IMG/VR virus record: IMGVR_UViG_3300031963_000179
Span: 1-56,801 of that record
Reading direction: 5' to 3' (one strand)
Length of the DNA stretch: 56,801 nucleotides
DNA from: a virus
Positions 23,101 through 50,389 of this stretch are shown here, piece by piece. The notes under the pieces are model-generated. The model had not been told where the DNA came from. It did not search any database and was given only the letters and a program-made list of their open reading frames with translations. A program made the translations under genes and the position numbers. The stretch's first letter is position 1, and every line of letters starts with the position of its first letter.

Positions 23101-26100
23101 GTTCTACAAAAGTTGTTTGGGGACAACAGTATGTTGGTAAGCTTTGGTTCGACACCTCTCAAACAAGATTTATTGATTATCATCAAAATGATATAGTTTA
23201 TAATAGCAAATATTGGGGTAGTGTATTTCCTGGCAGTATTGTTTCGGTTTATACTTGGATAGAAAGTGATGTGTTGCCTATCGATTATTCCGGTGTTGGG
23301 ACAGTATATGATATTGATTCTTACACTACTCTTTATGAGGTAATTAATGGCGGCACAATTGTTACAAGATATTATTATTGGGTAAAAAATATAGGCAATG
23401 TAATAAGTGCGAACAAGACGCTTTCTGATAATATCATTTCATCATACATATCCAATCCTATTAGTTCAGGCATAGCATTTTTAGCACCGTTAAAGCAAAA
23501 CGTATTTGGTTTGTATAATGTATCTGAATATATTAGTTCAAACTTTACTAGCTTACACTTAGGATTTAAGTCTAACTTAGGTAATGATGTTGCACACACT
23601 GAATTTAAATTAATAAGAGATGGTTATGCTGAAGATTTCTTACCAGGACTGCCAACACTATACAACAATCTTGTAAGACCAGACGGACTATACAGAAAAT
23701 TACTAGATAGTTTTGCTGGTGTTGATGCACAAGGTCAAGCAGTACCTAACCCATTCTTGCCTAGATTATTACAAACTGGAACTAATTTAAGACCTAATCA
23801 AAGTTTTTTCTATAATAGATTAAAAGCTTTACAAAATTATGTTCAATTTGCAAATAATGTAATGATAAAGTTTCCAATAACAGAATTAAAAAATCCAAGT
23901 TTCTTATCATTAGGCGGATCCGCAATAACAGGTGTAAATGCCCCTGCATTCTTTACAATTTCGGGTGATAATTTTGATACAAATAATTATTGGGAATATG
24001 TGAATTGGTGGGAGGAAGGTTATTCAGACTCAACAAAAACTGATATTGATGTTGCCAAATATTACGATTTAGAAAAACTAACTCCGTATGAAAATATGAT
24101 AGTCGGAGTAAATTCTAACAGTAACGGAAAACGTGAGGTCTATATTTACAGAGTAAATTCTTGGCAGAGAATAGGGTTAGAATTAGGTACAATTCAAATT
24201 AAAGACTCGCTTTGGAATTACAGCATTAATGGTATAGGATTCGGTGATAGCTTTTTTGATAGCGATCCTTATGATACGTTTCCCTCTGTCGAAACATATA
24301 ATATAATTCGTGGATTAAATGAAGAAGTATTTACTGATGATTTGCTGATTTATAGAAATCAAGGTTTAATTTTATTGTTTAATTATATAATCACCGAAAG
24401 TGATGAATTTGGTAATTACTTGCCTTGGTTAAACAAAACATCATTCTTAGATGTTGAACATACCTTAAGAGAATTGGAACAAATTAAAAATTTCCAAAGA
24501 GACAATGAAGATTTTCTATATGGATACATTAATGAAGTTAAACCATATAGAGTAAAATTAAAAGAATTTAGTTTAAAATATACAAAAACAAATATCTATG
24601 ATGGTAATATAACTGATTTTGATTTACCTTCTCAGTGGAATGCTGAATTAAATTCATTCGTAACACCTGAGCTAGTTTTTGGTGATACAACAAAAGACTC
24701 ACAATATACTACTACTGATCCTATATGGGATGAAACTCAATACAATCAGTGGTTTAATAATTATGGAGTTAAATTACAAGGAAGACCAAATTATTTTATT
24801 GGTTTGTTAAAAGCATATGTGCCAGTCGCAACTAAAGTTATTATCGTAGACAATGCATTTGGCTATCCTGTAACAGGTGTTATAAAAATAGATAACGAAT
24901 TCATCGGATATAATCAAGTTGATAGAGATTTAGGTATATTATCAGGACTGACACGCGGAGCATTTGATACCGAAGTCGTAGAACACATGCCGGGTACTAA
25001 AATTTATATTGACTTACCTGCTGTAACTGTATTGTATGCAGGCAGAGCCTATACCGAACCACCTAATATAATCACATATGTTGATACTTCAATTTTTCCT
25101 GCTCCTAAGGTTCAAGCTGCGATCAAAGCACAAATGTCAGGAGATGAAGTCATTGCAGTTACTATTTTAAACTCAGGTGAAGGATATAAAGTTCTACCAG
25201 AACTCATTATTGAACCAGCGATAGAACATAAATTTGACTCTACTGATATTAATTTTACAAATAATACCGTAAACGTTCCTTTCAAACTTTTTGAAACAGG
25301 AGACTTATTACAGTATAGAAAAGGTGATAATGTAACTCCTATTTTAGGATTGATTGATAAGCAATATTATTACATTAGACTAATTGAATATGGGCTGCAA
25401 AAACCCACAGTTACTTTAGCTAACGAAAACAGACCAACTGCAATAGCATTTTACATTTCAAAAATTAATGCTATAAATGATACGTATCGATTAAGTTTAG
25501 TTCAAAGTAAAACACCAAGTGATAATCATATTCTATCACTGGGAGCTAGATTAATCCCAATATCAAGTAATGCTCCTACAAGACAAATTACTCCTATCTT
25601 GAAGTTTGATAGAACAAGTTATACCCCAGTAGTTCAACCTTGGGCCCCTAATCAATTCTACATCTCTGATTATAACAGTATTGGAAATGATGCAAGTTAC
25701 GGAAGTAGATTAGCAACTGCAATACCTTATAATTCTGTTTCTGGTTCTGTAGCCCCGCCGGGAGGAAACGGTGCTATATTCAATGTGTACGCTTGGATAT
25801 ATGGAAATGAAGATGAACCACCTAATTTTAATTCATCAGGAAATACTTATGGAGTCTATACTGCAGACCTTAATAGTGGTGGGTTAGGCTATCAAGTTGG
25901 TGACGTAATTACTATACCTGGTACTTCTTTAGGCGGAACCGCACCTCTCAACAGTTGTACAATCACTGTTGCGCAAGTTACACTTCCTGGATCAATAACT
26001 CAGTATGTAGTAGAAGGAATCCCTTCTACTGTTTTTAGGTCCAGTTTACAAGGTGCAACAGTTCCTATTACTAACGTTACGACTGAGACAGGTACTAACA

Positions 26101-29100
26101 ATGTAATTGTTACTTTTAACTATGCTGCTAGTACATTAAGTGCAGGATATTTAAATAAAACAAAATTATATTTCTACAAGACTAGTAGATTAACAACTCC
26201 ATACATATATGATAATTCTGGATCAGGTGGTGCAATTATTTGGGTCACTAGTCCTAAGATTTATGGACAAACTGTGCTTAATGAGTACTTTATTGATATA
26301 AAAGATTTTGGAAATATTTACACAACCGGTGATAAAATTACTATTTCAGGATCGTTATTAGGAGGTACTAGCCCTGCTAATGATTTGATAATAACAGTTA
26401 CCTTCGCTCAATCAGGAGGCATAGTATTTTATTCACTTAGTGGAATCTGTGCTAACGCTTATGCCGAATACTATACTGTGCCCATAACAGCTACTCAGTG
26501 CAGATTATATTACAATTCAATATTAACAGATCCAGTAAAGAATACAGTTGGAACTCCGTTTATATTTACCACAGGGGATATCGGATTTTATCCGGAACCA
26601 TTTACAACACCATCAGCTTCGCTAGTAGCCTACAATAATAAATTGTATAAGTGCATCGTTGCAAATAGCGATAGCACATTTGATTTTACAAAATGGGAAC
26701 TGTTGCAAAGTGACTATTTAGGAATTAATGCACTTGATAGAATAGTTACATACTATCAACCTACAGGTAACATGCCAGGTAACTATTTACCTTTGTTATT
26801 GTCAGGCTTAGAATATCCTAACGGAACTAATTTAGGTAATAAGTTTGATGAAGATTTTGAATTAGATGTTAATTTACAGGGGCAGCCATTTTATCCAAAA
26901 GAAATTGATATAAAGAGTATAGTGTACGATGGAATGAAATATGTCGCTGTAGGTAATACACCAAATCATGCTACAGTTTTATATAGCACGAACGGAAGAG
27001 ACTGGTTATTCAAAAAGATTAGTGATGTTCCTTTAAATGTAACAAGTATAATTTATTCAGGTTCTTTTTATGTGATTTCCGCTCAAAATTCTAGTGCACC
27101 TTTACTTATTAGTTATGATGGATATAATTGGGTAAGTGTTGGGTCTTATACTGTTTTTGATGACGCACCTTTTGATGTTACAGGGTTCGATACACTTTCT
27201 GTAGAAACTCCGAACGATGAGCTTTATAGTGTTGCATATTACAATAATAACTATGTGGCGGTAGGTAGCAACCTCTTAACCAGTATTAATGCAACAAGTT
27301 GGGGAACAGGGTTTAGTTTTCAAAGTAGATTGCCAAATGTTTTAAAATCTGTAAGTTATATTTCTGGATCAGGCCTCATATTTGAAGGATTTGTCGCAGT
27401 TGGTAGTGGTACTTCAGTCATTGAAGGGGCAAATACTCCTTCACCAGTTTTTGAGGAACAATCAAGAGTAATTATAAGCTATGACGGTATAGAGTGGACA
27501 AACACAAATCAAACAATTGACGCAAAATTTAACACAGTTTTTAATTCACCCACAAAAATTATTGCAGCAGGGGAGTTAGGTAAAATATATTGGTCAGTCA
27601 ATGCTAGTAACTGGAATCCTGCAACGATATTAGGTCCTGTGTTTACTACAGAAATTAATCATGGTATATTTGCATTAAACACTTACGTATTAGTTGGAAA
27701 TAACGGTATTGTGTTATACAGCGGTGATGGTCAAGTTTGGAACCAAACAGCTACAATTACAGTTAATACTTTAAATGAAATAAGTTTTGATGGTACTTAT
27801 TTAATAGTAGTCGGTGAAAATTCAACAATTTTAAGAAGTAGAAATATAATTGATTGGGAAAATATTTCATTTTTACTTGTAGAAGAACCTCAATACACTA
27901 TTCAGGGAGAAACGTTCCTGTCGGGTTATGGACCAGAAGAAATGGTTCCTGCTGTGATTTCTGATAATTTACAAATGATTGTCAAAACTACACCAGGCTC
28001 ACTTTGGGACCCAGGCGTATATGATAATTTTGGTTTTAATATGGTAGGAGTGACTATAGAAACTGAAAATATCACTCAGTTTTCATTTGCAGGTATATCA
28101 CCATTTGTGACAGAAATTGCGGTATATATTATATCTTCTTCAAACACCAGAGCGACTAGAATCTATAAAGTAAGTGATGTACCAACCGCAACTAGCCTAA
28201 CAAAAATTCAAACAATTAATTGGGTAAACAAAACTGTTACTTTGACATCTCCTATTTCTCCAACGGAAAAAATTTATTTTGAGTGTTATGATATTGGTGG
28301 AGGAAATCAACAATCAAAAGGAACATCAGACACTATTCCTATCAAATTAGATACTGAAAAAAATGAAAGTTATATTGACACAGAATATCCATTTAGATCA
28401 GGAGTTTATTTATTTTCTGTGGTTTATATAAATGGAGTAAAACAAACATTAAACACTGATTACAGAATAGAGCCAAATAAATCAAATTCAATTAGAATAA
28501 TTTTTGATTCAATAGTAGATTCTACAACACAATATGTAAGTTTTGCTATATTTGGTCCTACTACTACAAATTCGTACCAATATTGTATGCCAGAAACTCA
28601 GGTATTTCAATACACTAGTGGGCCACAAGTGTTTACTTTAACTAACTTTATGGGAGGTAGCAATGCTACTAATGCAGTAGTTGAAGTAGATGGTATTCGT
28701 GCAAGAAACACGATTGATTATACTATTGTAGGTAACACCTTAACTATACTACCTTCTATACCTGCTACAACTATAGTGAGTGTAACATCATTTAACGATA
28801 CGCAAAATCAATATTTTGTGACGCAAACATCTACCACTATACGAGTTACTCCTATATATTATGTAAATACCCCTGCAACTCCGGTGATAATTACTACAGC
28901 AACTAATCCCAATTTTGTTGATCAAGATCAAGTTTTAATCGACGGAGTTCAAAACATACCAGAAATTAATAATAATATTTTTTATGTAAGACCTTTACCC
29001 ACATATGTTGAAAACGCAGTAACGTATTATCCATTTGAACTGTATTTAGATTCAACCATGTCAATACCTGTAATTGGAAATACTTTTGGTACTTATTTTA

Positions 29101-36083: not shown

Positions 36084-38513
36084 TCATTTACTAATAGGAA
36101 TTACTTTTTTCTTTGTGAAGTTACGATACTGTTCATGAATGGTTTCTTTAACTTGTATTTCAGAACTTACCCAATCATTGAAATTACCTTCATCAAAATA
36201 AGTTTTTTCAAAACTTTTATCTTCTTTTTTTCTTTCACTTTCATAAATTGACTCTGAATTTTTGTCCAAAGCCATATGATTAAATTTATGAGTTAAGAAT
36301 AGTTTATAGTCCCCGTCTTTATTTTTGCTTATAGTAAATTTGCATGAATAATCATTTACTAATGTGTTGCCAAAAATTGCTAAGTCAGATTGTGGATCAC
36401 ATTCAAAGCTATATTCAAAATCATCAAAATATAAATGTAAGCCGTATGCAAATGCAAAAAATTCATTAGCAATAGAGTTTCCAAAATCTTCGGAACTATA
36501 TCTTTCTAAATTTACGTAATAATCTTGTTTTACATATTTTTTTTCTGATTTTTTGCTAGTTACGAATGTGTATGAATCTTTTATAGCTAACGAATTAGCC
36601 TTATCTACACGTAAACTTGTACGTACACCTTCTTCTATTTCTTCTCTTGTGGCGTCTTTATTAAAACTGTCTGTGTTTGATTTTTTTGTATGTTTATATT
36701 GCTGACTATTTCTGACTGTTGCTTTAGCGTGTTCTGACAAAATATTTAACCAAACGTGAAATAGTTTTATTCTAATAAATCTATGTAATATTGTATTTTT
36801 GTAGTCGTGAGTATACCAAGTATTGCAAAATGTAATATCTCCTGGATAATTGTTTCCTAAAATACCATAAACGTGCCAGTCAGTTTGCATGTGACTAAAC
36901 TGTGCTGGTCCTGCACCGAACCCAGGACTTATAATGTTTATACTTTTCCTTAAATTTGCTATTAACTGCATACTGTGTAAGTAGTCAATTGGTTCTTCTG
37001 TAGGAAATCCTATCATATAGTTCACGTGATTAAAAAGATTTACCTCAGCACCATCATTTAAGTTATTTTCTATCTCCCAAATTTCAATTTTTTTTCTCAT
37101 GTCATTTAAAACTTTTTGACTACCTGATTCAACTCCGTAACTAATTGCTGTACAACCACTGTCGGCTATCTTCTTAATAAATTCTTTCGTCATTCTGCCG
37201 TCACATCTAGCATAACTATTCCATTTAATTTTTAGATTTTTTTCAATTATGAGGTCGATTAGTTTTTCGAAATTTTTAACATTACCGTTTACTAAACTGT
37301 CTACAAACCAAAATCTTTTAACACCGTAATTTTTGATTTGATATTCCATTTCTTCAACTACACGTTCAGGACCATTACTTCTAAACTTCCAAAAGTAAGT
37401 TTCTGCACAAAAACTACATTGTGCAATACATCCTCTAGAAGTTTCTATACTTACACCGTCTTGATGCATGTAGTTTGATAGGTTATAATCACTATAATCA
37501 GGAAAAGGATACTCATCTAGCTTTAATTTGCTATCAGTAGAACCTATTTTTTGATTTGTCGGATAAATATCGGGTAAATTTTCAAGAACATATGGAAGCG
37601 TTTCTTCCGCTTCACCCACAAACAAATAGTTAAAATGTGATGTTAATGAAGTAAAATCAAAATTTGTTATGACTTCAGGACCTCCTGCAAGTAAACATGC
37701 GTCAGGTAAAAGTTTTTTAATTTGACTTACCATATACTTAGTTGCAAAAGTATTTGTGTTGTATATACTAAATCCTATAACCTTAGGGTTAGACTTTACG
37801 ATATCGTCGATTGCCTTATCTAATACAGGTTGAATGTAAGGTAAAATAAATTTAACAAAATTTTGTCTTTTTATCCATAGAAAGTATCTTTCCCCTCGCC
37901 AATAATCTTCACCATGCAACTCTTTTAATGCATGATAACACTCTACATTCAAGTCATATACTTTGGTACTATAACCGTGCTTTCGTAAAACAGCAGTAAG
38001 TTTAGCCATGTTATAGGGCGGAAACAAAATACCCCAAGCAGGGGCGATAACCATTGCAACTTTAAACTTGTCTGTTGATTCCCATGCAATGTTTGGATTT
38101 TTAAATTTATATTGATAATCTTTCGTAAACTTGCCTAAATGAGAATTAGCATGATTAATTTCGTTTTCTAAATTATCTTCTTTGTAAATATGTTTAAGAA
38201 TTATTTGATCTCTGTCTCCGCTAAGTAATTGTCCACCTTCGGATTCCATTTGATTAATAATTTTAATTTTTATTTCATGTCTTTTTTTATAAATTTCTTG
38301 TTGATTAAAATCAGGAAATCTCTCTAATGCTTTTTCTACCCAAGGTTCTTCAGTATTTGGGTTAAGCATAGCTTCTTCTACTACCATTGGGTCTAAATCA
38401 TATAGACAAAAACATTCTAATAATTCAGGATCTGTGTTGATGTTTTGGGCTAATACTGCTCTGTCGATGTTATCTTTGCAAGCTTCAAGTAATAATTCGG
38501 TTTCTCTTTTCAT
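36084..38513 (-). CDS. B12-binding-domain radical SAM enzyme (809 residues)
   Basis: Cobalamin-type radical SAM protein. An unrecognised N-terminal region (~1-145) precedes a B12-binding-like Rossmann domain at ~150-330 (VAMVIAPAWGILFPPYNMAK, then a VIGFSIYNTN strand, LLAGGPEV and VGEAEETLPYVLE). The radical SAM core has ETSRGCIAQCSFCAETY near residue 355, with the CxxxCxxC iron-sulfur motif, then RFWFVDSLVNGN and a YGVESGSQKVLNDM motif. About 250 extra C-terminal residues follow. The DxHxxG cobalamin ligand is not visible. Class B enzymes of this layout methylate inactive carbons or rearrange substrates; the substrate here is unknown. It is last in a minus-strand operon behind the GT9-like and two other radical SAM genes. 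Confidence 0.8.
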   Translation of the reverse strand: MKRETELLLEACKDNIDRAVLAQNINTDPELLECFCLYDLDPMVVEEAMLNPNTEEPWVEKALERFPDFNQQEIYKKRHEIKIKIINQMESEGGQLLSGDRDQIILKHIYKEDNLENEINHANSHLGKFTKDYQYKFKNPNIAWESTDKFKVAMVIAPAWGILFPPYNMAKLTAVLRKHGYSTKVYDLNVECYHALKELHGEDYWRGERYFLWIKRQNFVKFILPYIQPVLDKAIDDIVKSNPKVIGFSIYNTNTFATKYMVSQIKKLLPDACLLAGGPEVITNFDFTSLTSHFNYLFVGEAEETLPYVLENLPDIYPTNQKIGSTDSKLKLDEYPFPDYSDYNLSNYMHQDGVSIETSRGCIAQCSFCAETYFWKFRSNGPERVVEEMEYQIKNYGVKRFWFVDSLVNGNVKNFEKLIDLIIEKNLKIKWNSYARCDGRMTKEFIKKIADSGCTAISYGVESGSQKVLNDMRKKIEIWEIENNLNDGAEVNLFNHVNYMIGFPTEEPIDYLHSMQLIANLRKSINIISPGFGAGPAQFSHMQTDWHVYGILGNNYPGDITFCNTWYTHDYKNTILHRFIRIKLFHVWLNILSEHAKATVRNSQQYKHTKKSNTDSFNKDATREEIEEGVRTSLRVDKANSLAIKDSYTFVTSKKSEKKYVKQDYYVNLERYSSEDFGNSIANEFFAFAYGLHLYFDDFEYSFECDPQSDLAIFGNTLVNDYSCKFTISKNKDGDYKLFLTHKFNHMALDKNSESIYESERKKEDKSFEKTYFDEGNFNDWVSSEIQVKETIHEQYRNFTKKKVIPISK

Positions 38514-38518
38514 AGTTA

Positions 38519-39595
38519 TTATTTTACCAAAGAACCCATATTACCTAACTTAAGTCGTAGGCTTTTAAATTTTTTTTGTATGTTGGAAGGCTGCTGAGAT
38601 TGTATGGCAGCAAAAACTTCTTTTGGTGTTATATCATTTATACTACGCATAAAGCTAGCACTTTGTATTTTCCTTCGTATGTTTGTGGTGTATGTTACCC
38701 CCAATAACTTTACATCCCTATTATTGCATAAGCCAACTAAGTTAAATGCATCTTGTAATACTTGAGTCTCGTTTGGATGACAGTCAAGTTTGTGACACAG
38801 CAATATTTGTTTTCCATCTACCCATTTTCTTATATATTTAGAATAAGAGTCAGGTGCTATTAAAAAATCAACTTTTTGTATTAATTTAGCACACTGAACT
38901 ATAGAAACTTTCCCTACTAAATTTATTATTCTATCATCAAATAACATAGCAGGATCAACCATGTAGTTGGGTCGATCAATCAAAAAAATCTTTGATAAAG
39001 GATAATTGTCTAAAATCATTTTAAAAATTTCAATATGTTTTTCTTTATCATATTTTTTTTGAGCATTACTTCCTGAAAGTTGAAAACAAAAAGTTTTATC
39101 TGTTCCTTTCAATAATGAATTAATATAATCATCATCCTGTTTAAAAATTAGCCCACCCTTTTCTTTTATGTACAAACCTTTTAATTGTTTGTCTTTTCTA
39201 AACCCTGGATAGTCATTGCATCTATAATTAGCTAATTCGATAGCTTCAGAATTTGCAAAAGTATGTTGATCTATAAGATGAAAAAAAGGAAATTCTTTTA
39301 ACAGGTCATGCAATGCTTGATGTACGGGATAAGCACCTGAAACAGTTACGGTGTGACCGGTATTATAATCTTCAACCTTATCGTAGTCTCTAATATAGGC
39401 CCATTGTCCGTTTTTTATTTTTGATCCATAAAATCTACTATAAACCAATTCTACAATATTTGTATCAGAATAAACCCAGTATATTGAAATTCCATAATTT
39501 TGGTAGGCCTTATAAAGTGAAGTTTGTTCAGTTATCATCTTTAAACAATCACCTAAACCACCAAAAAATCTAATTTTAAAGTGATTCGTCATCAT
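38519..39595 (-). CDS. GT9/heptosyltransferase-like protein with a shared C-terminal peptide
   Basis: A 358-residue GT-B-like protein resembling ADP-heptose:LPS heptosyltransferases. The N-terminus has FFGGLGDCLKM, like the GGxGD donor loop of GT9. The middle has FCFQLSGSNAQKKYD followed by a helix, and IINLVGKVSIVQCAKLIQKV with DFLIAPDSYSKYIR, the pattern of the GT9 C-terminal nucleotide-binding half, where the last motif is usually DSGxxH. That His is missing, so the acceptor or mechanism may differ. The protein ends LRLKLGNMGSLVK; the neighbouring radical SAM protein ends QLKLGNMSSLV. The start overlaps that gene's stop as ATGA. Confidence 0.6.
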   Translation of the reverse strand: MMTNHFKIRFFGGLGDCLKMITEQTSLYKAYQNYGISIYWVYSDTNIVELVYSRFYGSKIKNGQWAYIRDYDKVEDYNTGHTVTVSGAYPVHQALHDLLKEFPFFHLIDQHTFANSEAIELANYRCNDYPGFRKDKQLKGLYIKEKGGLIFKQDDDYINSLLKGTDKTFCFQLSGSNAQKKYDKEKHIEIFKMILDNYPLSKIFLIDRPNYMVDPAMLFDDRIINLVGKVSIVQCAKLIQKVDFLIAPDSYSKYIRKWVDGKQILLCHKLDCHPNETQVLQDAFNLVGLCNNRDVKLLGVTYTTNIRRKIQSASFMRSINDITPKEVFAAIQSQQPSNIQKKFKSLRLKLGNMGSLVK

Positions 39596-40698
39596 ACTAA
39601 TGAACTCATATTACCTAATTTTAATTGAGGATTTTTAAATATAGGATCTTTTAATATTTCAATTAATTTATTCCTATCTACATGATCCTCATGCCAAACA
39701 GCCATACCTTTAAATTTTTCATCACTTAAATGATACCACTGTGCTAATAAATTAGTCCAAATTTTAGGTTTAGATTTATATTGCAGCTGCCATTCAACAA
39801 ATTCTTTAAGTTCTTTATAATTATCACGTTGAACTATAAAATTAGTTTGCCAATTATATAAATTGGGGAAACGTTTTTGATGAATCATCTCATCTAAAAA
39901 TAACAAATTGTTTTTTAATTTTTTAAAGTTTCCGTTTTTTCTTACTATCTTATAAGTTTCTTCTGTGAATGCGTCTACGCTGACTTCAATGTAGGTTATA
40001 TATGGCCAAAGAGGTTCAATTTCTTTTAGGTGTTGTTCGGTCATTAGAACCCCGTTTGTTTTAAGAGTTATACGTAAATTATTAGGAATAGGATTTTTAC
40101 TTAGTTCTAGTAAATAGTTCCAGTATAATGGGCTAGCAAATGCATCACCGCTTCCTGTTATATTTAAACTTACGGTTGGGTGAAGTGTCAACAAAATATC
40201 AATAAGGTCTTTTACTTTTTCATGAATTTGTTTGATGTGTCTACCTCTACTGTCATCAGGGTTGAACGGATCATAATATATTAAATTATCTCTGCAGCTT
40301 GGACACTGTAAATTGCAACTAGGATCGTAGCTAAATCCAACGTGCATAGCAGTTTTCCTTAGTCTTTCATCCAAATTATTTTTATTAACAATATCCCAGT
40401 ATTCATTATCTCCAGTTAAAAACGAACTTAATTGGGGACATTGGTCATTGCAATAGGTAAAATTACCTTCTCGCATTCCTTCCTGTATTTCTAACCTAGT
40501 TACATTATTGATTATTTCTTGCGATGTTTCAGTAAGAACATTGCCTACCCATTTTGGTAACCAAGTATGGCAACATGCGCTAACTTGTCCTGATGTATGT
40601 ATTTCAATATGTTTAAAAGGGACGGTACAAGCCATTTTGCTTAACCTATTGTCAGCATCAAGGTAAAATGATTTTGGATGTATTTTGTATTCAGGCAT
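39592..40698 (-). CDS. Radical SAM protein with N-terminal SPASM-like cysteine domain
   Basis: A 368-residue enzyme. The N-terminus has the auxiliary-cluster pattern normally found at the C-terminus of SPASM proteins: MACTVPFKHIEIHTSGQVSA followed by CCHTW, then FTYCNDQCP. The radical SAM core follows with SYDPSCNLQCPSCRDN near residue 130 (CxxxCxxC), a VSLNITGSGDAFASP glycine-rich strand where most relatives have GGEP, and an ITLKTNGVLM strand. Such proteins modify peptides or sugars; the target is unknown. It ends in QLKLGNMSSLV, almost the same as the next protein's end. Overlaps: 8 bases with the upstream radical SAM gene, 4 with the GT9-like gene. Confidence 0.75.
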   Translation of the reverse strand: MPEYKIHPKSFYLDADNRLSKMACTVPFKHIEIHTSGQVSACCHTWLPKWVGNVLTETSQEIINNVTRLEIQEGMREGNFTYCNDQCPQLSSFLTGDNEYWDIVNKNNLDERLRKTAMHVGFSYDPSCNLQCPSCRDNLIYYDPFNPDDSRGRHIKQIHEKVKDLIDILLTLHPTVSLNITGSGDAFASPLYWNYLLELSKNPIPNNLRITLKTNGVLMTEQHLKEIEPLWPYITYIEVSVDAFTEETYKIVRKNGNFKKLKNNLLFLDEMIHQKRFPNLYNWQTNFIVQRDNYKELKEFVEWQLQYKSKPKIWTNLLAQWYHLSDEKFKGMAVWHEDHVDRNKLIEILKDPIFKNPQLKLGNMSSLV

Positions 40699-41914
40699 TT
40701 ATTAAATCTCTTAGTTCTGGAATTACGCTAACAAGACTTTCATTTCTGATTAAGTCAAGTTTTTTTGTATACCTTTTAAAATTTATTAGATTTTCTTCAT
40801 TAAATGGCTTGTCTAAATGCCAAAAAAGATGTAAGAATTTATTTTTTATATCAACATTAAATTTTGAATTATAATCACTTATAAATTTTTCTAATTTTTC
40901 TTTTATTTTTTCTCTTGTATAATCAGGTAACGCACTTACATGAAATTGCGGATTATATTCTACGACATTAAATGAAAAGTTTTGATAATTTTCATCATGT
41001 TCATTCACTGCTCCTATGTCAACTAGTCTCCAAATGATTTCTGGTATACGATGAACATTCATGTTACTCACTGTTATACCAGGTTTACAATGTATACCTA
41101 TTTGACTTACTGTTTTAAGATTTTCTTCGACATTTTTCCAATTCGTTCCGCTACGTATAAGTTCTGCTCTTTCATCAATTTCATCAATGCTCGGCCATAA
41201 CCATACACGTTTACCCCATTTTTTCCAATAATCAATTACATTTTTGTTTTTATATTTTAGTACACTTAAATTTGTATTATACGTTATGATTACATCATAT
41301 CTTTCTTTTTCATCAAGCATATCTAATATTTGCCAATGCTCGTCCATTAATAAAGGCTCTCCGCCTGCAAAGTATACTTTTTCTACAATGTCAACGTATT
41401 GTTTTAAAAAATCTACATTTCTTGATTCATCAACCGACTCGATACTAAAAACTTTTTTACTTTCATTGTAAGTAACCCAACCCATTTCTTTAGCATCAGG
41501 AATCCACGAACTTGAAAATTCGGGACCACAAGTTCTACACTTGTAATTACAAAGATTACTAAATCTAAAATCCCAGTATCTTAAATCAACTTTTTCAACG
41601 TGTCCGTCAGGCGATGTTATATTTGGTATTTCTTTCAGCTTTTCACTGAAATATCTATTATGATTTATTCGTGTACTAAAATTGGAACTATGTTCACTTT
41701 CAAAACATCTTCGGCACATGTTAGGTTCTTCGCCATTTAACATTTGTACACGAATACTTTTCATGTAATCGCTATTCCAAATTTCTTCAATGGTTTGTGT
41801 GTTTAAGTCACCTGCATAAGTTTTGTGTTCAGAAGTCATGCAACATGGATATACTTTTCCTCTTGGGATAATATTTAAATGTACCCAAGGAATTGAACAG
41901 ACGGTATTTTTCAT
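40691..41914 (-). CDS. Twitch/SPASM-domain radical SAM protein
   Basis: A 407-residue enzyme, first gene of the minus-strand operon. The N-terminal auxiliary-cluster domain has VCSIPWVHLNIIPRGKVYPC followed by CMTSE and later EPNMCRRCFESE. The core has RFSNLCNYKCRTCGPEFSSS (CxxxCxxC) and the SAM-binding VYFAGGEPLLMDEHW motif. It matches the 'N-terminal twitch' radical SAM group, known in marine phages and bacteria, whose substrates are largely unassigned. It is divergent from the 723-residue repeat protein, with 41 bases between the starts. I see no clear late-promoter motif on this strand. Confidence 0.82.
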   Translation of the reverse strand: MKNTVCSIPWVHLNIIPRGKVYPCCMTSEHKTYAGDLNTQTIEEIWNSDYMKSIRVQMLNGEEPNMCRRCFESEHSSNFSTRINHNRYFSEKLKEIPNITSPDGHVEKVDLRYWDFRFSNLCNYKCRTCGPEFSSSWIPDAKEMGWVTYNESKKVFSIESVDESRNVDFLKQYVDIVEKVYFAGGEPLLMDEHWQILDMLDEKERYDVIITYNTNLSVLKYKNKNVIDYWKKWGKRVWLWPSIDEIDERAELIRSGTNWKNVEENLKTVSQIGIHCKPGITVSNMNVHRIPEIIWRLVDIGAVNEHDENYQNFSFNVVEYNPQFHVSALPDYTREKIKEKLEKFISDYNSKFNVDIKNKFLHLFWHLDKPFNEENLINFKRYTKKLDLIRNESLVSVIPELRDLINA

Positions 41915-41930
41915 ATAATCTATATATCAC

Positions 41931-41938
41931 TCTAAATA
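41931..41938 (+). promoter_or_regulatory. Late-promoter motif TCTAAATA before the 723-residue repeat protein
   Basis: TCTAAATAC, 17 bases before the ATG at 41956, in the 41-base divergent gap. It places the promoter inside the longer frame that opens at 41893, which supports the downstream start. Confidence 0.6.
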
Positions 41939-41955
41939 CTTTGAAACTAAATTTT

Positions 41956-44127
41956 ATGATTACTGAACAAGAAATAAAAAAGCGTGAAGAACTTTGGGAG
42001 TTAGGATATTGGGAAATTCCTGATGGGTTAGATGTAAGTCATTTTAATTTTGCATGGCGCCCCTATAAATTCGATAGACCCTATATACATCAATTTGGTA
42101 CACAACATCAAAAGACAGGCGGCCCTAAATTTATCATTCCTAATAATGAAGGCATAAAATATCAAGATTTTCAACATGCAATAAAATTACCTGACCGAGA
42201 CAACAGATGTTGGAGACCTTTATTATCTAATGCTACAATAGATTTTAGTTGGCACCCTGATGAAACTGAGCCTCCTTTTATATATGTGTTTGGTAACCAA
42301 TGGCATGATGCACAAATTATGCCTACGTATCAATATAGAGTAAAAGGTGCTACAGAAAAAAAATATGTAGAAAACATAAAAGCCACATTGTTACCAAATA
42401 AATCTAACTGGAAAATTCCCGATGATATTGATGATAGTGCTTTCGACTATAGTTGGGTACCAAATCCTTATGAGCCACCAATTAATTGGGTGTTTGGCAC
42501 ACAATGGCAAAAAACAGGTGGTCCTGTTTTTTATAACGATAATGCAATTGGATCAAAGTATGTAGATTTTCAAAAAGTACAAAAAATTGCTAATAAAGAA
42601 AATAGATGTTGGCGAGTATTAAAACCTAATTTAGATTTTGATTTTAGTTGGCATCCTGATGAAACTGATCCGCCATACATTTATATATTTGGCAATCAAT
42701 GGTATGATGCAGAAACTATGCCTTCATTAATGTATAGAGTAAAAGGAGCAGTTGATAAAAAATATGTTACTGATTTAAAATGCGAACTTTTGCCAAACAA
42801 AAGTAAATGGAATATCCCAGATGATATCGAAAATGATTTTGACTACAGTTGGCTACCGCACCCGCACGAACCACCGTTGATTTGGCAATTTGGAACACAA
42901 TGGCAAAAAACAGGAGGTCCTCAATACATAGCTGATGGTGCAACGGTTCTAAAATACACTGATGAATTAAAAGCTAAACGCAAATCAAATATTAAAAAAT
43001 TTAGAATTATTGAGCCAGTTGATAAAGAAGATTTTGATTTTACTTGGCATCCAGATGATACTGAAGAACCGTACAATTATATTTTTGGCAACGACATACA
43101 CAGCTATGATAAAATGCCCACCCTAATGTATAAATCAAGTGAGGCAGTAGGTACAAAATATATTGATGATATTAAACCAAAACTAAAAATAGAAGAAGTA
43201 TTGGTAAATGACAGCATTTTTGATTCTGTCATATCTGACCCATTAAATTATAAATTTAATTTTTTTGGAATTGAAAAAATAGAATTTAGGCATTTGTTAA
43301 AAGATGATGAAGAATTAAATGTAATGCACATAATTGATAATGTAGCTGCTGTTATACCGAAAGAAGCAAAGACTTATGTTTACGATAAGCTTTATGACTA
43401 CCCATACATAAAATATCATAATTTGGGATACAGAAATAGACCGTTGGATATAATATTTTTGAGTAATGGTGAAAAGGGTTCAGAAGAAAACTACGAACAT
43501 CTACTTAATTTAGTAAGAGGTTTGCCTAACAATATTATAGGAATCAAAGATATACAGGGGCGTGTGGCAAGTCAGCATGAGGCGGCAAATATGGCATCAA
43601 CACCTTGGTATTTTTTAATTAACGGTAAATGCAAAGTAAATCCTAACTTTGATTTTAGTTGGCAACCCGATCGTATGTGTACTGCACGACATTATATATT
43701 TAGAGCGACCAATCCTGTAAATGGTCTTGAATATGGTCATATGGCTATTGTGGCAAATAACAAACGGTTAACACTTAATACAAAAGGAACAGGATTAGAT
43801 TTTACTTTAGAAAGCCCACACCAAGTAGTGGATATCAATTCTGGTATAGGTGTATTTAATACAAGTAAATGGGATACTTGGCGTACCTCATTCCGCGAAG
43901 TAATCAAACTTAAACACAATGTAGAAACGATAAATGATAAAGCTAGTTTGGAACGGCTTACTACATGGTTAACTATTGCAGAGGGTGCCTATGCTGAATG
44001 GTCTATTAAAGGATCACATGATGCTATAGAATATTATGAATCTGTGCATGGGGATTTTGAAAAACTAAAATTGAGTTATGACTGGGAATGGTTACATGTA
44101 AAATTTAATAGCATAAGACCAAAATAA
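41956..44127 (+). CDS. Repeat protein with alternating W/FGTQ-FGNQ modules and a degenerate transferase-like C-terminus (723 residues)
   Basis: Six half-repeats of ~65 residues alternate in residues ~25-400. Type A reads like FDYSWVPNPYEPPINWVFGT ending QWQKTGGP; type B reads like FDFSWHPDETDPPYIYIFGN ending QW and followed by MYRVKGA and KKYV. The C-terminal ~220 residues match the 309-residue protein at 35154-36083 (TPWYFLINGKCKVNPNFDFS, NGLEYGH, TWRTSFREVIKL), with the DGD motif replaced by NGK. A single FDFSWQPD echo recurs inside this domain. The frame opens at 41893, but that start lies inside the divergent gene and upstream of the late-promoter motif, so the ATG at 41956 is preferred. 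A carbohydrate-recognition role is a guess. Confidence 0.6.
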   Translation: MITEQEIKKREELWELGYWEIPDGLDVSHFNFAWRPYKFDRPYIHQFGTQHQKTGGPKFIIPNNEGIKYQDFQHAIKLPDRDNRCWRPLLSNATIDFSWHPDETEPPFIYVFGNQWHDAQIMPTYQYRVKGATEKKYVENIKATLLPNKSNWKIPDDIDDSAFDYSWVPNPYEPPINWVFGTQWQKTGGPVFYNDNAIGSKYVDFQKVQKIANKENRCWRVLKPNLDFDFSWHPDETDPPYIYIFGNQWYDAETMPSLMYRVKGAVDKKYVTDLKCELLPNKSKWNIPDDIENDFDYSWLPHPHEPPLIWQFGTQWQKTGGPQYIADGATVLKYTDELKAKRKSNIKKFRIIEPVDKEDFDFTWHPDDTEEPYNYIFGNDIHSYDKMPTLMYKSSEAVGTKYIDDIKPKLKIEEVLVNDSIFDSVISDPLNYKFNFFGIEKIEFRHLLKDDEELNVMHIIDNVAAVIPKEAKTYVYDKLYDYPYIKYHNLGYRNRPLDIIFLSNGEKGSEENYEHLLNLVRGLPNNIIGIKDIQGRVASQHEAANMASTPWYFLINGKCKVNPNFDFSWQPDRMCTARHYIFRATNPVNGLEYGHMAIVANNKRLTLNTKGTGLDFTLESPHQVVDINSGIGVFNTSKWDTWRTSFREVIKLKHNVETINDKASLERLTTWLTIAEGAYAEWSIKGSHDAIEYYESVHGDFEKLKLSYDWEWLHVKFNSIRPK
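42040..43160 (+). repeat. Three tandem A+B repeats (~400 bases each) in the 723-residue protein
   Basis: Type A modules start near 42043, 42446 and 42839; type B near 42240, 42648 and 43037. Within each type the protein identity is high (FGTQWQKTGGP, FGNQW, WHPDET), while the DNA copies differ at many silent positions, so the array is not a recent duplication. Confidence 0.7.
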
Positions 44128-44306: not shown

Positions 44307-44406
44307 TTGGTTACAAATTATGCCCATACATATTGCAATAATATGCATTGGATGTATAATGTATACATGTTATTTGTGGTTTAAATTGTTGTATGAAGTT
44401 GAATGA
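44287..44406 (+). CDS. Possible very small membrane protein (39 residues)
   Basis: An ORF overlapping the previous one by 20 bases in another frame, MIASLINWLQIMPIHIAIIC..., with one Cys-containing hydrophobic stretch and an end WFKLLYEVE. It lacks a clear ribosome site, and its second half lies over the -35/-10 pair that probably drives the tmRNA gene. It may be a chance frame. Confidence 0.28.
   Translation: MIASLINWLQIMPIHIAIICIGCIMYTCYLWFKLLYEVE
44333..44360 (+). promoter_or_regulatory. Sigma70-like promoter of the tmRNA gene
   Basis: TTGCAA (44333-44338), 16-base spacer, perfect TATAAT (44355-44360). Predicted transcription start near 44367, about 55 bases before the tmRNA T-arm. Confidence 0.5.
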
Positions 44407-44700
44407 AAGGTGTTCTGGACGCGGGTTCGACTCCCGCCTGGTCCACCAGAAGTGTTGTTTAGGGTGGTAAGTATGAGTTTAACAAGACTCAGAGGACCGG
44501 AATCCCCGATCTGTGAACAGCAGAACACTTCTGATGGGCCAGACATGGTTTCGACAGGGCAATGAGTAAGGATATGGACAACACAGTAGGCGATGACTGT
44601 CAATCAAGCAAAACTATAACTGCAAACGCAGCTAACGATGAGGTATATGCTCTAGCAGCATGATCTCCGGGGGAACTATCCCTTGTTACCAAAAATAGTA
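44367..44700 (+). ncRNA. ssrA: Circularly permuted (two-piece) tmRNA, phage ssrA
   Basis: Ribosome-rescue RNA with halves in swapped order. The acceptor piece comes first: T-stem GCGGG/CCCGC with TTCGACT loop (44421-44437), acceptor strand CTGGTCC (44438-44444), then ACCA (44445-44448) encoded in the DNA. After an 87-base intervening segment comes the coding piece: acceptor strand GGGCCAG (44536-44542), which pairs with CTGGTCC over all seven positions (one G-U), then the tRNA-like GGTTTCGACAGGG. The tag frame at 44622-44663 reads ANAANDEVYALAA and stops with TGA; its ALAA end is the usual protease signal. Outer boundaries are approximate. Bases after the CCA and before the GGGCCAG strand form a hairpin continuous with the acceptor stem. 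Confidence 0.93.
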
Positions 44701-44722
44701 AAAGGGGCTTCGGCCCCTTTTT
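44701..44722. terminator. Rho-independent terminator after the tmRNA gene
   Basis: AAAGGGGC, TTCG loop, GCCCCTTT followed by more T: an 8-base stem with a UUCG tetraloop and a T-run. It ends the tmRNA transcript. The flanking A and T runs would also let it act on the convergent minus-strand operon, whose last stop codon is at 44721-44723. Confidence 0.88.
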
Positions 44723-44939
44723 ATTTACCTTTGAAACTTGAACACATCATTTCAAATTCTTGTTGTTTAGAAGTTATCTGACCATAACTTGCTTTAGGAT
44801 TTTTTTGTCTGTATTCCTCTTTTTCTTTTTCGACACATGCATCGTATTGATTAGTGCATCCGGTCAATATCGCACCAATTAAAGTCAGATACAACAAAAA
44901 ACATACATATGTAAGAAATTCAAATGCATAATCTTTCAT
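44721..44939 (-). CDS. Small putative lipoprotein (72 residues)
   Basis: The N-terminus has a hydrophobic helix (FLTYVCFLLYLTLIGAILTG) that runs into Cys, giving an L-T-G-C lipobox near residue 28. The mature part (~45 residues) is charged, with an EKEKEEYRQKNPKA helix and two more Cys. This fits an outer-membrane lipoprotein; outer spanins have this shape, but no inner-spanin partner is visible beside it. A good ribosome site (AGGAG) precedes the ATG. It is last in a minus-strand operon and ends in the tmRNA terminator. Confidence 0.55.
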   Translation of the reverse strand: MKDYAFEFLTYVCFLLYLTLIGAILTGCTNQYDACVEKEKEEYRQKNPKASYGQITSKQQEFEMMCSSFKGK

Positions 44940-46838: not shown

Positions 46839-47008
46839 ATTTTTTTCACACACTTTCCCTCAATCTTAAAATTATTAAATTTTAACCAATATGTCATACT
46901 TTGTAAACTCTGTTCACACGTTATTTGATCAGTAAATTCAAGAGTTATCCGACCTGGTATGTCTTTTGGATCGCTCAGATGTACTGCTATCAATATCATC
47001 AAATACAT
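46835..47008 (-). CDS. Small Cys-pair protein overlapping the LpxH-like gene (57 residues)
   Basis: MYLMILIAVHLSDPKDI, then ITLEFTDQITCEQSLQS and an end NNFKIEGKCVKKI. The layout matches the 61-residue protein at 45212-45397, a likely paralogue with a hydrophobic start and two Cys. The frame opens at 47032, but the ATG at 47008 gives the hydrophobic start. It overlaps the 3' end of the phosphoesterase gene by ~70 bases and the GT2 start by four (ATGA). Both overlaps suggest a coupled, real gene despite its size. Confidence 0.5.
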   Translation of the reverse strand: MYLMILIAVHLSDPKDIPGRITLEFTDQITCEQSLQSMTYWLKFNNFKIEGKCVKKI

Positions 47009-47759
47009 TGTCAGACTCTTGTCTCCATGCAACTATTTCCCAACGACCGTTTGTGTGTTCTACTAAAGCAGTATAACTTTCTACCCAGTCTCCATCGTTC
47101 ATATAAACTATACCATCTACATCTTTTATTTCTGCATGATGAATGTGCCCACATATTACACCATCATAGCCTTTTTTCTTACAATACGCTGCTATATTTG
47201 TTTCAAATTGAAACATGAAATCTACAGCTTTTTTTACCTTGCGCTTAAGGAAACGACTAAGACTAAAATAGCCAATACCCATTCTATGTAGGATCCAATT
47301 GAACTTACTATTAATTGATAAAATGGCGTCATATGCTTTGTCTCCTAAAATTGCTAGCCAAGGGGCTAGTCTTGTAATACCATCGAATAAATCTCCATGA
47401 ACAACTAGATAGTGTTTACCATCAATACCTATATGTTCAATTTGATTATGCATTTCTACCATACCAAAATTTAAATTGTATTGTAGAAAAGGTCTTAAAA
47501 ACTCATCATGATTTCCTATTACATAAACTACTCTTGTGTTTCTTTTAGCATGACCTAAAATTCTACGCACTACGTTTGTGTGACTTTGTTTCCAACGCCA
47601 TTTATTTTGTTTTATTTTCCACGCATCAATTATATCGCCCACAAGATATAAAGTGTCACAGGTGTGATTTTTTAAAAAATTGTTTAAAGCCTCAGCCTTA
47701 CAATCTTTAGTTCCTAAATGTACATCAGATATAAAAATAGTGCGATAATGTGTTTTCAT
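46938..47759 (-). CDS. LpxH-like metallophosphoesterase (UDP-2,3-diacylglucosamine hydrolase family)
   Basis: A 273-residue calcineurin-like phosphoesterase. Motifs: TIFISDVHLGTKDCKAEAL (Asp 12, His 14), LYLVGDIIDAWKI, VYVIGNHDEFLRP, LVVHGDLFDGI and VICGHIHHAEI, a complete two-metal set spaced as in LpxH and its relatives. LpxH cleaves UDP-diacylglucosamine to lipid X in lipid A synthesis, at the inner face of the inner membrane. The specific substrate here is inferred. The frame extends to 47816, but the late-promoter motif five bases before 47759 and the family N-terminus place the start at MKTHYRTIF. Confidence 0.82.
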   Translation of the reverse strand: MKTHYRTIFISDVHLGTKDCKAEALNNFLKNHTCDTLYLVGDIIDAWKIKQNKWRWKQSHTNVVRRILGHAKRNTRVVYVIGNHDEFLRPFLQYNLNFGMVEMHNQIEHIGIDGKHYLVVHGDLFDGITRLAPWLAILGDKAYDAILSINSKFNWILHRMGIGYFSLSRFLKRKVKKAVDFMFQFETNIAAYCKKKGYDGVICGHIHHAEIKDVDGIVYMNDGDWVESYTALVEHTNGRWEIVAWRQESDNVFDDIDSSTSERSKRHTRSDNS

Positions 47760-47764
47760 AATAA

Positions 47765-47772
47765 TATTTAGA
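47765..47772 (-). promoter_or_regulatory. Late-promoter motif TCTAAATA, five bases before a start codon
   Basis: Minus strand TCTAAATA, then TTATT-like bases and the ATG at 47759. Five bases between motif and start predict a leaderless mRNA for the LpxH-like gene and its operon. Confidence 0.6.
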
Positions 47773-47805
47773 ATATATTGTGTGACAATACCATTACAAA
47801 CCACA

Positions 47806-47834
47806 AAAAAAGGCATTTAAAATGCCTTTTTTGT
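47806..47834. terminator. Bidirectional-looking terminator after the porin gene
   Basis: AAAAAAAGGCATT, TAA, AATGCCTTTTTT: a 7-base core stem extended by A/T pairs with T-runs on both strands. On the minus strand it ends the porin transcript 18 bases past its stop. Confidence 0.8.
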
Positions 47835-47851
47835 TTTATTATCAGATAATT

Positions 47852-49258
47852 TTAGAAGCTTAATTGACTTCTAAACATCACTGCTTTGTCACCAGTCACA
47901 CGACTACCTGAACTACCTACTAGGCTGTCAAACTTAGTGTCTACATAGTTTAACATAAAGCGCAGATTGTCTGTACAGAACCAAGTGACTCCATAGGTCA
48001 TAGCAGTGGCACGATTTGATTTACCAGTAGCAACACTAATGTCACTAGCATCAAACTCACTCATGCGCACACCAACTTGCCATGCACCCTTGCCACCTTT
48101 ATCTAAAGAATTGTTAGGTTTGATCCAATTAAAGATACCATCCTTATAATTGTGACTTTCGCCTGTCAAGTTATACAAAGCTTGTACATAGTATCCATTT
48201 ATTTTCTGATCGTTACCTGTAGTAGGATCATAATTGAATTGGAACTGTTCACCCTGTAACTTCAATCCATTATATGCAAAAGCTGCTTCAAGACCTTGGC
48301 GTGTTCTGGTCGTAGTGCCAGACAATGCAGGACCTGTGAACCAACCTGATTGTGTTCGTGCCTCAGTTCTACCACTAGCTGGGGTTACACCACCTTTAAT
48401 CTCACCTGTACTATATGCTGCTCCCAAATGCAATACATAAGCCTTGCTACCTTGTAACTCAGCAACGTTTGTTACTACACGACCGATGTAGTCAAAGCCA
48501 TCATTAGTTGCATCTTTATTGGCACGACCACGACTTAGTGCTATTTGGTAAAGTAAGCCAGGCTTAGGGATACCATGTAACATGAATCCAGTTTCTTTAG
48601 CAGGAATGAATTCACCGTCTGTATTACCAATTAAACTGCGCTCCATAAAGTCTATGTTATTAGAACTGGTCAACTGTTCAAGACTGAAAGGCATTTTAAA
48701 TAGTCCGAACTGAAACTGCATTTCAGGATTGGCTGCGTAATTTACCCACATTTCATCTGCTGTTGATGTAGTTGAACTTGATCCAGCATCATTACCGAAG
48801 TTTGCTAATAACTGATACTTAAAGTCTTTAGCAAATTGTCCACGAACACCAAAACGACTGCGACGAACTTCTGCTAGATTCTGATACGAATCTGTGGTTT
48901 GACCTGCACCATAAGTGGGTTCGTACTGACGATAGTCCATATGTAATCGACCTGTAAGTTGGATGGTATTGTTTCCGTCTTTACTTTTGAGTCCGATTCC
49001 GTTTTCGGTAACTGATCCGTCGTTGATTCTAGCGATTCTGTATTTGTTGTTGTCGCTAACATCTTTGTCGATTCGCTGTTCCGCAAACTTTTTGTTTTCT
49101 TCTTTTTCTTCATATGCTTGGATTTTAGAATTGTATTCTTGTTGAGTAAGAATTCCTTTATCTCTAAGAATACTTAATGTTTCTTTGTATTCATCAGCAA
49201 AAGCGGGGGCTGCAAAAGCCAAAGAAAGGGCTAGTGCAATTTTTGTAAATGTTTTCAT
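47852..49258 (-). CDS. Phosphate-selective porin, OprP/OprO-like
   Basis: Outer-membrane beta-barrel of 468 residues. A signal peptide (MKTFTKIALALSLAFAAPAF) precedes a helical segment, ETLSILRDKGILTQQEYNSK, typical of this family. The barrel follows: strands such as IQLTGRLHMDYRQYEP, EVRRSRFGVRGQFAKDFKYQ and FGLFKMPFSLEQLTSSNNID, the last a conserved OprP region. It ends with a terminal Phe (FRSQLSF), the usual barrel-insertion signal. It lies 62 bases downstream of pstS, behind a consensus sigma70 promoter. Together they suggest phosphate uptake through the outer membrane and capture in the periplasm. Bacterial origin is likely; the DNA looks less AT-rich than the fibre genes. Confidence 0.88.
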   Translation of the reverse strand: MKTFTKIALALSLAFAAPAFADEYKETLSILRDKGILTQQEYNSKIQAYEEKEENKKFAEQRIDKDVSDNNKYRIARINDGSVTENGIGLKSKDGNNTIQLTGRLHMDYRQYEPTYGAGQTTDSYQNLAEVRRSRFGVRGQFAKDFKYQLLANFGNDAGSSSTTSTADEMWVNYAANPEMQFQFGLFKMPFSLEQLTSSNNIDFMERSLIGNTDGEFIPAKETGFMLHGIPKPGLLYQIALSRGRANKDATNDGFDYIGRVVTNVAELQGSKAYVLHLGAAYSTGEIKGGVTPASGRTEARTQSGWFTGPALSGTTTRTRQGLEAAFAYNGLKLQGEQFQFNYDPTTGNDQKINGYYVQALYNLTGESHNYKDGIFNWIKPNNSLDKGGKGAWQVGVRMSEFDASDISVATGKSNRATAMTYGVTWFCTDNLRFMLNYVDTKFDSLVGSSGSRVTGDKAVMFRSQLSF

Positions 49259-49272
49259 TATTTTTCCTTATT

Positions 49273-49310
49273 AAAAAACCGTTAACATTATATATGAAAT
49301 ATTAACGGTT
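49273..49310 (-). terminator. Inverted repeat with T-run after pstS, enclosing the porin promoter
   Basis: Perfect 9-base arms AACCGTTAA (49277-49285) and TTAACGGTT (49302-49310) with a 16-base loop, followed on the minus strand by six T. It can act as a terminator for pstS. The loop and arms contain the porin promoter's spacer and -10, so it could also be an operator. Confidence 0.55.
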
Positions 49311-49315
49311 GTCAA
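49287..49315 (-). promoter_or_regulatory. Perfect-consensus sigma70 promoter of the porin gene
   Basis: Minus strand TTGACA (49310-49315), exactly 17 bases, TATAAT (49287-49292). Both hexamers and the spacing are consensus. A ribosome site (AAGGA) follows before the ATG at 49258. Confidence 0.88.
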
Positions 49316-49320
49316 GTTAG

Positions 49321-50346
49321 TTATTTCCAAATTGGATTGTTATCTGGGCCACGGAAATCCTTCTTCCAGTTTTCCTGCACTAGTTTGATTACATCTTGTG
49401 GCATGTGAACATATTCTAGTTCTGTTGACATTTGACCACCGTTCTTGTATGCCCAATCAAAGAACTTGAGAACTGCACGACCTGTCAATGTATCTGCTTG
49501 TTGCTTGTGCATAATGATAAAACTTGCACCTGTTGCTGGCCATGCATCCTTACCTGTCTGCCATGTCAGTAACAAATACATTCCAGGTGCATTGTTCCAA
49601 TCAGCATTTGCTGCGGCTGCTTTGAATGTAGTATCGTCAGGTAATACAAAGTTACCATCACGATTCTTTAGTGCTGCATATGGAATCTTATTACGTTTTG
49701 CGTATGCATATTCAACATAACCAAATGCACCCTTAAGTCTTTGCACTTGTGCTGCGACGCCTTCGTTACCTTTACCACCTACACCAACTGGCCACTTAAC
49801 TGCCGTACCTTCACCAACTACTTTTGCAAACTCTGCATTAGCTTTGCCTAAGAAATTTGTCCAAATAAATGTAGTACCTGAACCATCAGCACGATGAACC
49901 ACAGTGATGTTCATTGCAGGTAAGTTTACACCTGGATTTAATTCTGCAATTGCTTTATCGTTCCACTTTGTAATTTTACCTAGGTGAATGTTTGCAATTA
50001 CGTCAGGTGTTAATTTAAGTTTTCCTGCGTCAATACCATCAAGATTATAAACTGGTACAACACCACCAATGATTGCTGGGAACTGAACAAGTCCTTCTTT
50101 GTCTAGTTCATCTTTCTTCAATGGCATATCACTTGCGCCAAAGTCAACAGTCTTTGCTTTGATTTGACGAATGCCGCCACCACTACCAATTGATTGATAG
50201 TTTAAACCAATACCAGTCTGAGCTTTATATGCTTCTGCCCACTTAGCGTAGATTGGAAATGGAAAAGTCGCACCTGCTCCAGTAAACTCTGCTGCTGATG
50301 CGACTCCGGTTACTAATAGAGTTAAAACTGCAAATAGTTTTTTCAT
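49321..50346 (-). CDS. pstS: Phosphate-binding protein PstS
   Basis: Periplasmic phosphate receptor of the Pst ABC importer, 341 residues with a signal peptide (MKKLFAVLTLLVTGVASA). Binding-site segments are intact: TGAGATFPFPIYAKW, SIGSGGGIRQIKAKTVDFGA followed by SDMPL, VVHRADGSGTTFIWTNFLGK and GVGGKGNEGVAAQVQ. The end GPDNNPIWK is like proteobacterial PstS, and the whole protein reads as betaproteobacterial. The frame extends to 50385, but the signal peptide and the GGAG ribosome site place the start at 50346. Upstream are a PhoB-box-like site and a TAAATA motif at the -10 position. No pstCAB genes follow, so the phage protein must work with the host permease. Confidence 0.95.
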   Translation of the reverse strand: MKKLFAVLTLLVTGVASAAEFTGAGATFPFPIYAKWAEAYKAQTGIGLNYQSIGSGGGIRQIKAKTVDFGASDMPLKKDELDKEGLVQFPAIIGGVVPVYNLDGIDAGKLKLTPDVIANIHLGKITKWNDKAIAELNPGVNLPAMNITVVHRADGSGTTFIWTNFLGKANAEFAKVVGEGTAVKWPVGVGGKGNEGVAAQVQRLKGAFGYVEYAYAKRNKIPYAALKNRDGNFVLPDDTTFKAAAANADWNNAPGMYLLLTWQTGKDAWPATGASFIIMHKQQADTLTGRAVLKFFDWAYKNGGQMSTELEYVHMPQDVIKLVQENWKKDFRGPDNNPIWK

Positions 50347-50389
50347 AGTGTGTGTCTCCTTTTTAAGAAAATTTGTAATTTGCAATAAA

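Follow-up and report, generated by a model that had tools for sequence, protein, structure and literature searches.

A circularly permuted tmRNA gene in a probable T4-like myophage genome fragment and its mosaic relatives in viral contigs

The window, by which we mean the whole stretch of 56,801 nucleotides analysed here (positions 1 to 56,801 of IMG/VR virus record IMGVR_UViG_3300031963_000179), carries a complete circularly permuted tmRNA gene on the plus strand at positions 44335-44723. Two Rfam models match it over their full length with scores above the curated cut-offs, namely RF01850 (134.3 bits, cut-off 84, E-value 7.8e-41) and RF04321 (133 bits, cut-off 47, E-value 7e-26), and the former, the beta model, is the best covariance model for the gene. 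The independent ARAGORN prediction is likewise a permuted tmRNA, and its tag is ANAANDEVYALAA. The original prediction, made from the sequence without database searches, had placed the acceptor half before the coding half and had named a covariance-model search as one way to check this. The search returned both models in permuted form, and the order of the halves is the same in the Rfam alignments and in the ARAGORN call. The observation of a phage-encoded permuted tmRNA is confirmed. The predicted locus stands, with a correction to its start: position 44367 lies just past a promoter-like -10 box, and the gene as modelled by Rfam begins at 44335 and takes in the upstream stretch.

All features of the gene lie on the plus strand. 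The promoter-like site, TTGCAA-16-TATAAT (44333-44360), is a consensus match only, with 10 of 12 positions, and is the best such match within 1.3 kb. Sites of at least this quality are found upstream of 21% of the sampled phage tmRNAs (n=66), compared to 2.5% of mononucleotide shuffles. The candidate promoter is sigma70-like, and the suggestion that the RNA acts late in infection found no support. Of the two pieces, the acceptor piece is encoded first (44387-44448; RF04321 aligns from position 1) and represents the 3' half of the tRNA-like domain. It contains the T-arm GCGGG TTCGACT CCCGC (44421-44437), with all five stem pairs formed and placed by the RF01850 and RF04321 alignments, the 3' strand of the acceptor stem, CTGGTCC (44438-44444), the discriminator A73 (44445), and a DNA-encoded CCA (44446-44448), present as claimed. 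The 5' strand of the acceptor stem, GGGCCAG (44536-44542), opens the coding piece. Recomputation of the stem gives the seven pairs that had been counted, GC GC GU CG CG AU GC. The third of these is G3.U70 (G3 at 44538, U70 at 44442), the alanine identity determinant, which is conserved in tmRNA (PMC3985003).

Between the two strands lies an intervening sequence (IVS) of 87 nt (44449-44535), which is predicted to be removed, judging by its fold and a conserved basal helix. This helix, formed by 44447-44456 with 44524-44533, continues the acceptor stem. The segment comprising acceptor piece and IVS folds with -43.9 kcal/mol, compared to -27.4 kcal/mol for shuffled sequences (z -4.7). A search of the spacer for a glutamine riboswitch or any other riboswitch or ribozyme, at the gathering score and at a relaxed E-value, gave nothing credible.

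In the coding piece, the RF01850 alignment identifies a conserved D-arm analogue, TGGTTTCGAC (44546-44555), which is (nearly) invariant in phages and bacteria. The tag frame (44622-44663) consists of the resume codon GCA, the tag ANAANDEVYALAA called by ARAGORN, also present as predicted (44622-44660), and the stop codon TGA (44661-44663). The resume context, TATAACT-GCA, contains UA and is common to the relatives. Compared to bacterial beta-type tags, the frame has a 9-nt in-frame insertion directly after the resume codon (44625-44633), seen as inserted columns in the alignments, which adds an extra ANA without disrupting AANDEVY or ALAA. The ALAA end, followed by the stop codon, is a ClpXP-type degron. 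Downstream, a hairpin ACTAT...ATAGT with loop CCCTTGTTACCAAAA (44675-44699) matches the 3' structured part of RF01850; the same type of hairpin is found in relatives L126, L128 and L004 but not in L092 and L049. The gene ends in an intrinsic terminator (44700-44721) with a 9-bp stem, a 4-nt loop and a T-rich tail. The region has 3 terminator-like sites, compared to 0.7 in shuffles.

The surroundings of the gene agree with the predicted phage location. The source is an IMG/VR virus contig with genes resembling those for the baseplate wedge proteins gp53, gp25 and gp6, and with genes for a baseplate hub lysozyme, a late sigma factor, a tail fibre chaperone and other tail proteins nearby. Copies of the gp6-like protein on contigs of 223 kb and 85 kb share 60% identity with that of the window, and a copy on a contig of 221 kb shares 58%. 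In isolate phages, its best match is to jumbo myophages, at about 32% identity. Because of the identities to the 223-kb and 221-kb contigs, the window probably derives from a larger T4-like myophage genome, of about 220 kb. The 223-kb relative (L004) has a syntenic tmRNA, with a repeat protein upstream and GATase, OprP (phosphoporin) and PstS genes downstream, as in the window. The upstream gene of the window (41893-44127, plus strand) encodes a 744-residue protein with internal repeats and without Pfam or PHROG match, immediately before the tmRNA; homologues are found directly upstream of the tmRNA in L004, L042, L033, L101 and L108. The pstS/phosphoporin cassette of the window (46938-50385) is on the strand opposite to the tmRNA. 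Elsewhere, pstS lies less than 400 nt downstream of the tmRNA, on the same strand, in at least nine loci (L002, L018, L024, L039, L044, L045, L092, L098, L117). Among the matches listed, 16 of 120 phage loci have pstS inside the fetched flank, often followed by phosphoporin and phosphoesterase genes. The window also contains a gene cluster (36084-41914, minus strand) for an uncharacterized 358-residue protein and three radical SAM proteins, of which two have SPASM domains and the third a B12-binding domain, and a single reading frame of 5279 codons that adjoins the baseplate genes (14133-29972, plus strand).

Related loci are common. Scanning viral contigs with the T-arm/acceptor/CCA pattern of the window yielded at least 120 loci, the window included, and for the 120 loci among the matches listed ARAGORN reported 113 tmRNAs, almost all of them of the permuted form. 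Nearly all sampled phage copies retain the complete seven-pair acceptor stem, G3.U70, A73 and CCA. This pattern already demands the acceptor sequence, so that a fairer test comes from copies retrieved through the tag pattern (L121-L130). They also keep seven of seven pairs, G3.U70, A73 and CCA, and pairs 4-6 vary with compensation. Of 57 distinct phage arm pairs, 55 form the basal helix of the IVS with 8 or 9 of its 9 pairs, and widely differing sequences show compensatory changes. Cognate phage arms bind with a median of -8.1 kcal/mol, compared to -2.4 kcal/mol for non-cognate arms. In the tag codons, relatives not selected on the tag differ from the window by about 23 synonymous and 10 non-synonymous changes, 7 of the latter at one Tyr/Phe site, against a random expectation of 26% synonymous; L039, mis-framed by a start one base off at the locus edge, was dropped from this comparison. 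Tags end in LAA in 83 of the 87 phage genes sampled. In these comparisons, phage permuted tmRNAs prove to be complete genes of constrained structure that occur commonly in viral contigs.

Phages with a permuted tmRNA are already on record: the gene of phage Melnitz has been published, and a count in 402 tmRNA-bearing phages gave 53 two-piece genes (PMC9004378). Melnitz, which infects Methylophilales of the OM43 clade, is the precedent to which the original prediction pointed; it has a two-piece ssrA, as do related pelagimyophages (PMC9004378). A 2025 database lists 79 unique tmRNA sequences from phages, permuted or otherwise (PMC11915505). Both Melnitz and the phage of the window are aquatic T4-like myophages whose ssrA is complete and circularly permuted. 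However, the Melnitz gene is of the alphaproteobacterial type with a glutamine riboswitch, whereas the gene in the window is of the beta type and no riboswitch was found. Above the RF04321 cut-off, permuted tmRNAs are also present in the isolate phages QDWS595 of Alcaligenes (L195, 1445-1821), X1 of Xanthomonas (L196), Marzo of Stenotrophomonas (L197) and BUCT628 of Acinetobacter (L198), with tags that differ from that of the window, such as VAANDDSYTVRIAA or ANDNVYAAAA. Three of these four records lack a tmRNA annotation. Three of the four phages have gammaproteobacterial hosts, whose own tmRNA we take to be of the one-piece form. Assignment of a host from the tmRNA type was rejected, as permuted tmRNAs also occur in gammaproteobacterial phages. 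The tmRNAs of mycobacteriophages Bxz1 and Wildcat and of Bacillus phage G are presumably one-piece as well. These phages share with the window a phage-encoded tmRNA, which PMC4131195 does not describe as permuted.

Among bacterial genes, the closest likeness is to the betaproteobacterial RF01850 type, a permuted lineage reportedly described by Sharkady and Williams in 2004. The order of the halves, the acceptor stem, T-arm, D-arm block, resume context and 3' hairpin are all shared, and in one bacterial gene (L193) the acceptor stem, CTGGTCC/GGGCCAG, is identical to that of the window. The encoded CCA is unremarkable, being found in 34 of the 43 permuted genes sampled from bacteria. Bacterial beta-type genes are characterized by a 10-residue tag, AND...(A/I/L/M)AA, and a short IVS; in the window, the tag has 13 residues and the IVS 87 nt, compared to a bacterial median of 32 nt. 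The bacterial set of 45 permuted genes is a limited sample, perhaps without some aquatic hosts. Searches by order and family were productive, and sampling by class and phylum gave mostly genomes without beta-type tmRNA. The tag has 10 residues in 42 of these 45 bacterial genes and another length in 40 of 87 distinct phage genes (Fisher p 2e-6), and the median phage spacer, measured by pairing, is 81 nt, compared to the bacterial 32 nt (p 6e-17).

Tags of the family ANAANDEV(F/Y)ALAA are present in many viral contigs, and the corresponding fully degenerate DNA pattern had no match in one genome from each of 84,980 GTDB species. The shorter ANDEV(F/Y)ALAA had 13 GTDB matches, and those recognized as tmRNA with this tag are one-piece. 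Much longer tags, of 23-33 residues, occur in phage loci L016 (7526-7966), L059, L061, L099, L113, L070, L078, L119 and L024; an example is ANADTFDFTALNFTGNTVANDSRFALAA. Their resume context is normal (TAAAT-GCA in most), and in most of them the extension precedes a host-like degron. Several contain a motif like F(D/E)F..(L/M)(N/S)F.GNTV. On the bacterial side, a permuted gene from the order of the sampled beta-type tmRNAs (L194, 1452-1812, minus strand) has a 5-nt spacer and an odd tag of 28 residues, GNQPSNLQVMQQFDVPTPANGDQYLNVA, with glycine as the first residue.

The halves of the phage genes appear to have different histories. Pairs were compared whose 180 nt upstream of the resume codon are more than 80% but less than 99.5% identical. 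Among these, the 3' modules (tag and downstream sequence) are less than 65% identical in 51 of 89 phage pairs and in 0 of 166 bacterial pairs, a contrast that is descriptive because the phage pairs are statistically non-independent. Two clusters of change points are seen, one near -88 to -84, just behind the D-arm block, and one from -10 to +11, where the resume codon lies. Both places are conserved blocks, which might direct homologous recombination. L086 and L049, for example, share 96% identity as far as the resume codon and show no relation beyond it. An identical 92-nt segment of acceptor and spacer is combined with three tags, ANDEVFALAA, ANDDYFYQDLKLAA or ANDEHFYQEFKLVA, over 15 contigs, and assembly chimerism was rejected as the source of the mosaicism for this reason. 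The window itself is a mosaic of this kind. Its acceptor half and spacer match L092, L088 and L103 with 7-12 mismatches in 105 nt, and the tags of these loci, ANDESYALAA or ANDERYALAA, are unlike its own. Its tag half matches L004 (97%), L121 (93%) and L126 (84%), which have unrelated spacers. The mosaic pattern of phage permuted tmRNAs is well supported, and it suggests that phages keep swapping the tag-coding half and that the sampled bacteria do not. No earlier report of module exchange was found in the literature searched, which covers few subscription papers, and the phage-only tag family and the exchange are probably new.

We consider it very likely that the gene is an intact phage two-piece ssrA that carries out trans-translation with host factors, and that its benefit is most likely the recycling of ribosomes. 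The two halves would pair within a single precursor via the seven-bp acceptor stem, extended by the IVS helix. Host RNase P and host 3'-processing enzymes would then excise the spacer, leaving an acceptor piece that ends in CCA and a coding piece, joined by base pairing. Processing by RNase P and tRNase Z has been proposed for the two-piece class (PMC3985003). The tmRNA would be charged by host AlaRS through G3.U70 and delivered by host SmpB and EF-Tu to ribosomes stalled on broken messages. Translation would restart at GCA 44622 and append A plus ANAANDEVYALAA, and the ALAA end would direct the tagged product to ClpXP. Degradation of messages during infection is expected to stall ribosomes, and the host ssrA may not suffice to release them. 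SmpB (PF01668) was recognized in none of 15 phage records and in 10 of 14 control genomes, with a model that a diverged phage SmpB could escape. Host SmpB is therefore presumably used; as the window is a genome fragment, smpB may also be encoded elsewhere in the phage genome. Compatibility of the RNA with host SmpB, AlaRS and proteases is assumed.

Other explanations appear much less probable. The gene could be a relic of a host ssrA, captured for instance by imprecise excision of a prophage from an ssrA attachment site, and have no function in the phage. ssrA is a common integration site (PMC9004378), and related genes exist in the sampled bacterial genomes. However, the gene is complete, with a terminator and covarying helices, it recurs in many phage contigs and at the same position in the 223-kb relative, and its tag family was absent from the GTDB genomes scanned, so that a relic is very unlikely. 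It is even harder to credit that the record, although derived from a metagenome, represents host contamination or a chimeric contig, since phage structural and regulatory genes flank the tmRNA together with genes shared, in similar arrangement, with the 223-kb phage contig, and the same combinations of modules recur in separate contigs.

Two further alternatives grant the RNA a function of another kind. It might inhibit host trans-translation as a decoy, like the TLD-only RNA of mycobacteriophage DS6A, which is thought to titrate SmpB (PMC4131195; PMC11915505). The DS6A RNA has no tag coding region. In contrast, the window keeps the tag frame, resume context, 3' hairpin and degron, all of them conserved, and the intact tag contradicts the decoy reading, to which we give very little credence. 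Alternatively, selection may favour the marking of host proteins, or of chosen ones, as a way to recycle amino acids or take over the host, and not the rescue of ribosomes in general. This is the least implausible of the alternatives, yet still improbable. Such marking was proposed for Melnitz (PMC9004378), and phage tags diversify by module exchange, which ribosome recycling alone does not require. On the other hand, tmRNA acts on any stalled ribosome, no targeting element was seen, and, because the C-terminal degron is conserved, no new destination for the tagged proteins is implied.

Ribosome rescue with host factors remains the preferred reading of the gene in the window. For the wider set of loci, we tentatively propose that the permuted tmRNAs of aquatic phages are a recombining family of their own, in which the exchange of halves is adaptive and gives rise to tags that are absent from the sampled bacteria, some of them extended to 13 to 33 residues, an idea that is possible rather than probable at present. 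Exchange may retune delivery to host adaptors and proteases, or it may allow escape from host nucleases. mRNA interferase toxins are host nucleases that cut the coding region of tmRNA, and a parallel can be drawn to phage tRNAs, which escape anticodon nucleases.

Phage tmRNAs are known, yet almost unstudied, and the phage tag family and its module exchange need a dedicated study. The locus and its relatives offer a means to test why a virus should need a ribosome-rescue RNA of its own, and whether selection during infection acts on the sequence of the tag as well as on the release of ribosomes.
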